NCBI RefSeq assembly: GCF_003944835.1
Contig: NZ_RWIV01000001.1
Location: forward strand, 1,651,501 to 1,715,500
Direction of reading: 5' to 3'
Source of the DNA: Bacillus sp. HMF5848
Lineage (GTDB): Bacteria > Bacillota > Bacilli > Bacillales > HMF5848
Length of the DNA: 64,000 nucleotides
Below are positions 27,289-30,620 of the stretch, piece after piece; positions within the stretch are counted from its first letter, which is position 1; every line of letters starts with the position of its first letter. The notes beneath the pieces are model-generated. The model did no database searches and was not told where the DNA came from. It was given only the letters and a program-made list of their open reading frames with translations. The translations under genes were made by a program, and so were the position numbers.

Positions 27289-29109
27289 TTGACATTTTTA
27301 CCAGACGATATAACTTCTGTTGTCATAATTAGTGCAACGTTTCTAGTCTTACTTTATATAACGTTTCGAGCCATACGAACAAATCATGCTATATATACGT
27401 TTTTCTACAATGTAAGTCAGGACTTATCTAGGAGTCCTGAACAACATTCCTTCGTACAGGTTATTTTTAATAAATTCCAATCAGTAAAAAATAAAGATAT
27501 TCATTTGCAAAGTTTTTTAGAAGAATATTTTGCAGAGTATCGTCTTGAAGCACATAAAGCGAAAGTGTTGCAGGAATTGAAGATGATTCAAATGTGGAGT
27601 TCTATTGCTATTTTAATAGGCGTATTGGGGACGTTCATTGGTTTAGTTGTATCTTTAAGTGGTATAGATACTGCCATGATGAATGATTCTATTACGAATG
27701 TGTTATCGGGTATTCATACAGCTTTCTACACAAGTATTGCAGGTATCATCTGTTCAATCTTTATTAATGTGCGCTCAAAATATGAAAATGCGGAACAAAT
27801 GATGATTGAGGTTATGTTGAAGCTAGAGAATTACTTAAGGGAACAGGAACGAGAAACAACCGAAACTAGAATGGTTGAATCGATGGGAGATATGAAGCAT
27901 GCCATTCTTGAATTAAATGAAACTTTTAAAAATACTAAAACATTTCACGAAAGCTTTGAACGTGCTACAGAGAAAATGCTTACTTTTAGCGATGCTTTTG
28001 GAAAGAATGCTGAGCAATTTCAAGTTATGTTTTCAAACATGAATAATGTAACAGATTCTTATAATGATCAAATGGTACGTTTAAGTCAGGATTTCTCAAG
28101 TCTATTTTCTTTTATGGAGAAACAGGAGACTGTTCAACAGCAGGCATTAAAAATTATGGATGAAACAAGTAATCATGTTGTTGGTTTTGTTGAAAAGCAG
28201 AGTACAATTGCAGATAATCAATATAAAGAATATAAACAACTATCAGTAACGTACCAATCTATTAGAGATGATATAACCGAGTCATTACAAGCTGCCAAAG
28301 TATTCTATGAAGCAAGCTTGCAAAAACAATCAGAAGTTTGGCAAAGCCAACAAGCTTTTGAGGAAAAAAATCATCAGTTGTTGAAGCAAGTAGAACAGGC
28401 AACATCTTCTATTAAACAAGTATTAGATACGACGTCATTCTCACACTTAACATCGTTTGCAAAGACATTCCAGATTAATATGGAACAGCTGCAAGAGAAC
28501 TTTCGAGATATGATTGGGCAATTTGATCGAACAGAGCAGCTTCAAAAGCAGTATAAAGAGCTTTATGAGCAAGTTTTACAGCAAACTGAACAGCATACTA
28601 TTCGCCAAACTCAGCAGCAGAAGGCGTTTTTGTCTCAAATTGACTCGGTTATAAATCATGCTAATGATATGCATGATTCATATAAAAAGACGTATCAGTT
28701 AATTACTAGCTTTGATACAGCATCTTCCATTTTAACGGATGAACTTAAAAAATTATTGGATCGAACAGAGAGGACGATGCAGGAGAATTTAATTTTCATG
28801 AAAGAACAGTCGGGTGAAGTTCAAACAGCATTGCGACAGTTCTTAAATAGATCAACTGACTTTACAGAAAAAATCATGATGTCAATTGATACGAAGCTTG
28901 ACAGCACATTGTACGACAATTTAAATAAAATGACACGACAAGTAGAGGCAGTAGTAAATACTCTGGATTCAACTATGCAAAATTTTACTGATACAACTAA
29001 ACAGGCTAGTGCTCAATCGAATAAGCTTTTGCAAACTTCACTTGAAGATTTATCGGATACTTTACGGGATTTATCTCGCTCACGAAGAGCGCAAATTCCA
29101 AATTCATAA
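27289..29109 (+). CDS. zorA: ZorA-like MotA/TolQ-family ion-channel protein with long cytoplasmic tail
   Basis: The 606-aa protein has a first membrane segment at about residues 9-28, and a MotA/ExbB-type channel pair near 100-122 (SSIAILIGVLGTFIGLVV) and 142-165 (HTAFYTSIAGIICSIFI). A cytoplasmic tail of more than 400 residues, rich in Gln, Lys and Glu with heptad-like repeats, should form a coiled coil. This layout, together with the MotB-like next gene, matches ZorA of the Zorya anti-phage systems, where a ZorA5-ZorB2 ion-driven rotary motor signals through its tail. Flagellar MotA lacks such a tail. The start is TTG 27289, eight bases after GGAG. No Zorya effector gene (zorC, D, E or F/G type) is visible nearby. 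Confidence 0.75.
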   Translation: MTFLPDDITSVVIISATFLVLLYITFRAIRTNHAIYTFFYNVSQDLSRSPEQHSFVQVIFNKFQSVKNKDIHLQSFLEEYFAEYRLEAHKAKVLQELKMIQMWSSIAILIGVLGTFIGLVVSLSGIDTAMMNDSITNVLSGIHTAFYTSIAGIICSIFINVRSKYENAEQMMIEVMLKLENYLREQERETTETRMVESMGDMKHAILELNETFKNTKTFHESFERATEKMLTFSDAFGKNAEQFQVMFSNMNNVTDSYNDQMVRLSQDFSSLFSFMEKQETVQQQALKIMDETSNHVVGFVEKQSTIADNQYKEYKQLSVTYQSIRDDITESLQAAKVFYEASLQKQSEVWQSQQAFEEKNHQLLKQVEQATSSIKQVLDTTSFSHLTSFAKTFQINMEQLQENFRDMIGQFDRTEQLQKQYKELYEQVLQQTEQHTIRQTQQQKAFLSQIDSVINHANDMHDSYKKTYQLITSFDTASSILTDELKKLLDRTERTMQENLIFMKEQSGEVQTALRQFLNRSTDFTEKIMMSIDTKLDSTLYDNLNKMTRQVEAVVNTLDSTMQNFTDTTKQASAQSNKLLQTSLEDLSDTLRDLSRSRRAQIPNS

Positions 29110-29115
29110 AAAAGG

Positions 29116-29853
29116 ATGAATCGTGTGAAACATAAATATTCTCGAATTATAAATCGTCAGCTTGATGAACAGGAATTTTGGCCGTCCTTTACAGATTTAT
29201 TAACAACAATTCTCCTGGTCGTTTTATTGTTATTAATGGCGGTATTAGCTACTGAACAGGTTAAAGCAGAAAAGAGGGAGCAAGAACTAGCTGAAAAGGA
29301 AATGAAAATTCAAGATCAAGAAGAGTTAATTTCACTGTTAACCGGTGTCCGTCAAGACATAATTGAGGATCTTATTCTAGAATTTGAGAATGAGGCACTT
29401 GGCATAGATGTTGATAAAGAAACCGGTGCGATTAAATTTCGAAATGATTTGTTATTTGCAACGGCTAGTGATGAAATTCGTGGACCATTTAAACAAGAGT
29501 TAAGAAATTTTATACCAGAGTATTTCTCTATCGTATATGGTAAATACGGAGATCACATCGCAGATATAGTTGTAGAAGGTCACACAGATGATGTTGGTTC
29601 TTTTATGTATAATCTCGAATTATCGCAAAAGCGTGCATTCAGTGTTGTACGTTACATTCTGAGTGATGAATTTGGTGATTTTCCTTACAAAGAAGTGGTT
29701 CGTGATAATATTACGGCAAATGGGCGTTCTGAGAGTCAATTGAAATTCTTTGAATCAGGTGAAGTTGACCGCGATAATTCTAGACGAGTTGAATTTCATT
29801 TTCGTTTGAAAAATTATAGCGACTGGAATGAAATTGCAACGACTACAAAATAG
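29116..29853 (+). CDS. zorB: ZorB-like MotB/OmpA-family stator protein
   Basis: A short cytoplasmic N-terminus is followed by one membrane segment (about residues 26-46). At its start is an Asp in PSFTDLLTTILLVVLLL, the position of the ion-carrying Asp of MotB. After a short charged coiled coil (50-75) comes an OmpA-type peptidoglycan-binding domain with VEGHTDDVGS, NLELSQKRA and the closing NSRRVEFHFR. The gene starts six bases after zorA, so the two are co-expressed. GTG 29125 has slightly better spacing to AAAGGA and may be the real start. A terminator lies seven bases after the stop. Confidence 0.75.
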   Translation: MNRVKHKYSRIINRQLDEQEFWPSFTDLLTTILLVVLLLLMAVLATEQVKAEKREQELAEKEMKIQDQEELISLLTGVRQDIIEDLILEFENEALGIDVDKETGAIKFRNDLLFATASDEIRGPFKQELRNFIPEYFSIVYGKYGDHIADIVVEGHTDDVGSFMYNLELSQKRAFSVVRYILSDEFGDFPYKEVVRDNITANGRSESQLKFFESGEVDRDNSRRVEFHFRLKNYSDWNEIATTTK

Positions 29854-29890: not shown

Positions 29891-30163
29891 ATTTCGAAAC
29901 CCCACTTTGTTAATGGGGATTATCAGTTATGTAATGACACTCTTCACTAGTTACACATATGTCTTGTTTTTTCGTTTTCATGCATATTGATTTAGTCTAT
30001 ACTCCTTTTACAGGAGTGTGTGACTGTATGTAAGCTCAAATGCGACACGTTGTCCTAACATACTGGCGTTATAGTTTATGTTTTATACGGATTCTTATCT
30101 CTAGATAAATGAATCACTGTTCATATATATGTCACATATACCGTGCGTAAAAAACTCAATTGG

Positions 30164-30172
30164 TGATATACT
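30164..30172 (+). promoter_or_regulatory. Extended -10 promoter for the 30179-30620 RNA
   Basis: TG-A-TATACT (30164-30172) is an extended -10 element. No good -35 is seen, which this class tolerates. Transcription would start near 30179. Confidence 0.5.
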
Positions 30173-30178
30173 ATAAGT

Positions 30179-30620
30179 GTAAAGGAAATTATTAGAAAAA
30201 GAGTTGAACAGCCGTGGAGGCTCAACCAATACGTGTTCGTTCCGAAAGTGAGAACGTTTGAAGCGTAGCATCTTATGTATGTCGTGCCTGCATTTTTCGT
30301 AAGTATCATACTTTGTATAGTAGCTTACATGCAGAAGCAAAATTCATACTAAAGAGGGGTCAGAGTCGTAACGACAAAGCCGAAATAGATATACAATTTT
30401 GTATATGTAATTAAGGAACAACACAATCAGCTATGAACATTTTTCCCTACAATTGAATGCTTTTAAAACAATGTAACTTAATTTTTAAGTTGCACAATGA
30501 TCACCATTCAGATTATGGTGAATAAAAAATGATACGAATAGCTGATTAAATGGTTGGGTCTCCAGAGCTGTTCAATAAGAAGAGGTTACTTTTGAAACAA
30601 AAAGGTAGCTTCTTTTTTTT
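30179..30620 (+). ncRNA. Unassigned large structured RNA with long-range closing helix
   Basis: Two distant segments are complementary. Bases 30204-30212 pair perfectly with 30567-30575 (9 bp), and 30216-30228 pair with 30551-30563 (13 bp including two G-U). Only a symmetric 3x3 internal loop separates them, which makes a 22-bp helix closing about 320 bases. Inside are a long hairpin (about 30289-30333, CTGCAT with ATGCAG at its base), GTCGT/ACGAC near 30365, ATATACAA/TTGTATAT near 30390, and TCACCAT/ATGGTGA near 30500. A terminator ends it. Open frames across it are short and lack RBS. It does not match RNase P, tmRNA, 6S, OLE or group II introns as I remember them. A retron is unlikely since no reverse transcriptase gene is present. 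Confidence 0.6.
30578..30620 (+). terminator. Terminator of the 30179-30620 RNA
   Basis: An imperfect stem of AAGAAGAGGTTACTTTT against AAAAAGGTAGCTTCTT is followed by a run of eight T (ending at 30620). Confidence 0.7.

Follow-up and report, generated by a model that had tools for sequence, protein, structure and literature searches.

A candidate class of large structured RNA with a ResD-like promoter motif in Bacillus-like bacteria

Large noncoding RNAs form an already known broad category in bacteria. OLE RNA (RF01071), a complex RNA of about 600 nt made from a single gene in the Bacillota, has ties to stress and energy metabolism, and its biochemical role is unknown. ResDE is a two-component system that responds to low oxygen and nitric oxide, with ResD as the response regulator. 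ROOL and GOLLD are large ornate RNAs with defined folds (PMC12286853), and the Lactobacillus plantarum supermotifs (LPSMs) are large intergenic transcripts that occur in several copies and have no known function, 800-1000 nt long, cruciform and reported to be specific to L. plantarum (PMC5643018). At the small end of the scale, roxS is ResD-dependent, with a conserved site near -65 (PMC4409812), and a sponge for RoxS is known in B. subtilis (PMC8216469). Here we analyse a stretch of 64,000 nucleotides of Bacillus sp. HMF5848 (the window), in which positions 30179-30618 are, in the reading that we favour, the gene of one member of a new RNA class, found across Bacillales, whose large structured RNAs stand alone, are switched by ResD and act in trans under low oxygen or nitric oxide.

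The initial annotation, made from the letters of the window, could assign this RNA to no recognised class, and comparison with known families bears this out. With cmscan, the window RNA had no match at the gathering threshold among 4227 Rfam families, and relaxed filters returned chance matches only; 29 loci of relatives gave no gathering-score match to the same 4227 families, including OLE, ROOL, GOLLD, HEARO and raiA, and in 20 diverse member loci the RNA was likewise without an Rfam match. Like OLE RNA, the new RNA is large and complex, comes from a single gene and belongs to the Bacillota. However, the OLE covariance model finds no sequence or structural match in the window RNA or the 29 loci of relatives, and OLE is conserved over its whole length, whereas the interior of the new RNA is not. 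A separate full-length OLE RNA is present in the window genome (G000:C1:2799074-2799686, 517 bits), so that both RNAs coexist there. ROOL and GOLLD share the large size but give no Rfam match, and searches of phages, plasmids and viral contigs returned no relatives of the new RNA. The LPSMs are similar in being intergenic, multi-copy, large and of unknown function; the distinction from them is drawn from their published description and from the class-wide model search, which gave no convincing member of the new class outside two orders. RoxS/RsaE (RF01820) has its ResD-site promoter motif and its host genomes in common with the new RNA but is a C-rich antisense regulator of about 110 nt with no common sequence or structure; the window RNA fails to match RF01820, and the RoxS of the window genome lies at G000:C1:1313929-1314033. 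The 6S, SRP, tmRNA and RNase P RNAs are also stand-alone RNAs with paired ends, and none of their sensitive Rfam models matches. We found no earlier description in the open-access literature, and a description elsewhere is possible; the class is apparently new. Elsewhere in the window, a BsrC small RNA (RF01410, 72.9 bits) lies at 430-516 on the minus strand.

The predicted transcript of about 440 nt runs on the plus strand from 30179 to 30618, its start placed from the -10 position and its end from the terminator. The initial annotation had described a long-range helix of 22 pairs with a 3x3 internal loop; the positions of its two segments were correct, but in the minimum free energy (MFE) fold of 30179-30620 the helix, P1, has 24 pairs (10 + 14 bp; 30203-30212 with 30567-30576 and 30215-30228 with 30551-30564) and a 2x2 internal loop (30213-30214/30565-30566). 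The 5' strand of P1 (30203-30228) contains the near-invariant part GGAGGCUCAACCA at 30216-30228, and the 3' strand (30551-30576) contains its counterpart UGGUUGGGUCUCC at 30551-30563. Inside P1, the strand GUGUUCGUUCC (30233-30243, with C30238 bulged) pairs with GGAACAACAC (30415-30424) to form P1b, a duplex of -13.3 kcal/mol that none of 60 shuffles equalled, and AAUCAGCUAU (30425-30434) pairs with AUAGCUGAUU (30538-30547) to form the 10-bp helix P3. The variable interior domain (30257-30414) has hairpins of its own and holds a recurrent GAGUC motif (30363-30367). That the pairing goes well beyond chance was confirmed by a fold energy of -137.3 kcal/mol (z = -10.2), where 100 dinucleotide shuffles gave -87.2 ± 4.9 and none was as good; the minus strand of the same locus reached a z of only -4.8. 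The proposed flanking signals could also be located: an extended -10 element, TGaTATACT (TGATATACT), at 30164-30172 with no clear -35, and a strong intrinsic terminator with a 17-bp hairpin and a U run at 30577-30617. A ResD-like direct repeat, TTCATA-N5-GTCACA, lies upstream of the promoter at 30120-30137 (G000:C1:1681620-1681637 in the genome scan), and roxS carries the same motif at its ResD site.

More than 70 distinct relatives of the window RNA were found, in two orders. Their total length is 195-752 nt, and the interior is variable and conserved within genera only. P1 is present in every member, and most members share P1b and P3, which together with P1 give a three-way junction. The inner part of P1, GRCUCAACCA/UGGUUGRGYC, is almost invariant, wobble pairs included, and conserved G-U wobbles are replaced by A-U, U-A or G-C in other lineages. 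In the outer part, changes on one strand are compensated on the other; one pair, for example, occurs as U-A, C-G, A-U and G-C. The check for compensatory changes that had been suggested for the long helix gave covariation above a tree-based null, obtained with a custom R-scape-like script, distinct from R-scape, in which substitutions were re-placed on the tree. The six best-scoring among 1653 column pairs all belonged to P1, with E values of 3e-4, 0.016, 0.05, 0.18, 0.21 and 0.52 when all 1653 pairs are counted; these values are 57 times lower if testing is limited to the 29 proposed pairs. Outside P1, no pair among the 1653 had E < 0.05. When the helices were tested one at a time, P1b outperformed shuffled sequence (p ≤ 0.05) in 79% of members and P3, which adjoins the 3' strand of P1, in 81%. 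The P1b pairing differs by family: GUGUUCGUUCC/GGAACAAACAC, GAGUUCGUUUCC/GGAAACGAAUUC in another family and CUAGUUAGUUCCG/CGGAACUGGC in a third. Both checks named in the initial annotation as able to refute it, for covariation and for an Rfam match, spoke for a structured RNA. Judged from these aligned sequences, the members almost certainly constitute a conserved structured RNA family.

A profile of the 5'-end sequence (E ≤ 1e-4) detected members in 60 of the 397 genomes sampled from the order, representing 26-27 genera. This prevalence is a lower bound, because the model searches used the 5' end only and stricter filters. An order-level search also gave short matches to both RNA ends at plausible spacing in one family of the order. 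Run over 84,980 species genomes, a DNA pattern of the 5' end gave 48 matching stretches, nearly all of them from Neobacillus, Mesobacillus, Robertmurraya, Pseudoneobacillus, Cytobacillus, Bacillus mediterraneensis and Fervidibacillus halotolerans. Apart from two chance matches (L069 and L086), from which the 3' partner is absent, the complete matches all had the 3' partner end and an upstream -10, and nearly always a terminator. Reverse-strand matches (L057-, L139-, L144-, L145-, L149- and L072:4558) were taken as artefacts, P1 being near-palindromic. One record titled Chryseobacterium sp. ISL-80 (L063, JAGGQZ010000020.1) carries DNA of Bacillus type, matching a genome of the Mesobacillus group, and is probably mislabelled or contaminated. 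The members in the second order are in G413 and G433. The class-wide model search returned no convincing member beyond the two orders, and 0 of 387 other genomes in a phylum-wide sample were positive; among the genomes searched, the window genome is the only one of its genus and family, and searches at these levels returned it alone. Copy number per genome is 1-3. The window genome has a second copy outside the window (L121:4760-5170; G000:C1:1632760-1633170), which lies on the same strand some 49 kb further upstream and has a motif, a promoter and a terminator of its own and a fold z of -9.8, and two genomes (G267, locus L135; G329, locus L134) have three copies each, in tandem within about 2 kb. 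At another locus (L125, reverse strand), a long tandem array of ~60-bp repeats containing CGTTTCAGCCAAACC lies immediately 3' of the RNA.

Upstream of the members, 71 aligned regions gave the consensus AAAA-TTCACA-N5-GTCACAA at about -59 to -43, followed by the extended -10. The direct repeat TTCACA-N5-GTCACA was present in 92% of the 71 members (a score beyond the 99th percentile of shuffled sequence) and was absent in lineages L113, L120, L137, L138 and L140; some lineages have a cre-like sequence at this place. In G329 and G267, a cre-like TGTAAACGTTTGCA overlaps the regulator site, which suggests added control by CcpA in that family. Upstream of roxS, the motif stands on the opposite strand at a distance of exactly 53 nt, both in the window genome and in two genomes of the Mesobacillus group; in each of the seven genomes with a roxS gene, the roxS promoter has TTTGACAATATTGTGAAAT or a variant of it there. 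A scan of three genomes found it before qoxA, pflB and the gene of an anaerobic Fe-S oxidoreductase subunit, with further matches before spoVT, glycerate kinase and dynamin genes; the genome-wide count was just modestly above control. Two back-to-back ResD-like motifs at L179:1501-1540 (G000:C1:2071144-2071183), which no sizeable gene follows on their strand, mark a possible further small RNA. PhoP, WalR and other OmpR-type regulators also bind 11-bp direct repeats. Because the motif of the new RNA is that of roxS, and roxS is ResD-dependent, we infer that ResD probably controls transcription of the new RNA, and a related OmpR-type regulator would fit the motif as well.

The RNA lies on the same strand about 290 nt after zorAB, as the initial annotation stated, but the functional link that it raised is unsupported, the neighbours of the relatives being unrelated. 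The zorAB pair (27289-29853) has a good ZorB-type match and weaker ZorA-type matches, and no ZorC, ZorD or ZorE adjoins it in the window. By a look at their sequences, the neighbour genes of relatives include YitT-like, MHYT-domain, pyruvate phosphate dikinase, MutS2 and DksA-like genes. The locus is syntenic within Mesobacillus-type and within Neobacillus-type genomes, and its neighbours change completely between the groups; the second copy in the window genome sits between two genes unlike the neighbours of the first. Since neighbours differ between groups and a second copy lies elsewhere, zorAB is best regarded as a chance neighbour. A cis-acting role as leader, trailer or companion to zorAB or another neighbour gene, which the strand and distance in the window would allow, is therefore the least probable of the alternatives considered here: the RNA has its own promoter and terminator, and no relatives of zorA or zorB were clustered beside any other member. 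Instead, the locus is very probably a stand-alone gene whose RNA would act in trans.

Of the remaining readings, a bistable RNA is the one with most to recommend it, unlikely as it is. Either as a switch or as a folding pathway, the 5' GUUCGUUCC would swap between a local hairpin (with GAACGA) and P1b; the 3' GGAACAAAC would do the same between P1b and a local UUUGUUCC. The hypothetical local hairpin CGUUC/GAACG (30238-30256) would compete with P1b and recurs in many members, individually non-significant; the alternative pairings recur in most main-family lineages, the MFE fold of the second copy in the window genome is the alternative form, and the interior GAGUC motif, which is complementary to GRCUC of P1 and lies mostly 125-220 nt from the 3' end, was observed in 21 of 37 cases compared with 9 expected. 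However, the two local pairings beat shuffles (p ≤ 0.05) in just 21% and 36% of members, and both did so in 6%; neither was seen in the second order (L144 and L149). A DNA-level element, either a MITE-like small transposon repeat or a cruciform with P1 as terminal inverted repeats, is far less likely. Such an element would account for the inverted repeat at both ends, the variable interior and the two or three copies in some genomes, in tandem in G267 and G329, but not for a conserved promoter and terminator outside the repeats, P1b and P3 conserved inside, a copy number held at 1-3 with locations stable within genera, or a fold that is specific to one orientation. The near-invariance of inner P1, in which most members keep G-T/T-G mismatches that pair as RNA only, favours an RNA over a DNA inverted repeat. 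The likelihood falls a little further for a small-protein mRNA or dual-function RNA. Short ORFs occur in some members, and the window RNA contains a 25-codon ORF, MYVVPAFFVSIILCIVAYMQKQNSY (30275-30352), hydrophobic-peptide-like, with no clear ribosome-binding site and not conserved; in neither aligned group do all members have a start column with the same ORF length in common, and single-base indels break the frames, in agreement with the earlier view that the RNA has no credible protein frame. Lower again is the chance of a sponge or decoy for the ResD-controlled RoxS, like the one in B. subtilis. The two RNAs have a promoter motif in common, and AGAGGGGU in the window RNA could pair with the C-rich RoxS loop, but members contain GGGG less often than expected (10 of 37, compared with 18), and duplexes with RoxS did not outdo shuffled sequence (p = 0.60 and 0.75).

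The preferred reading, a ResD-switched RNA that acts in trans, suggests a possible mechanism. As the comparison of members shows, P1 pairs the ends of the RNA and meets P1b and P3 in a three-way junction, with a replaceable interior, and this closed core may protect the transcript and its ends. ResD, through TTCACA-N5-GTCACA ahead of the extended -10 promoter, probably switches transcription, and the RNA would then act in trans under oxygen limitation or nitric oxide stress. As inner P1 with its fixed wobbles is unlike a helix kept for stability only, recognition by a protein is favoured, and the near-invariant stretch may be a sequence-specific binding platform, with target or partner contacts carried by the lineage-specific interior, which varies too much for a functional site to be recognised in it. 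We tentatively consider that the RNA could be an RNA-protein scaffold rather than a simple antisense regulator; with similar reserve, the class might form a protein-binding or multimeric particle, induced by ResD and built on the conserved junction core with an exchangeable interior, that would resemble OLE and serve the low-oxygen response.

Few classes of large structured RNA are known, and most have proved to play unusual roles. The present candidate class spans at least 26 genera of Bacillus-like bacteria and at times shares a genome with OLE, and because its promoter points to low oxygen or nitric oxide, the function of the RNA may be testable at once.
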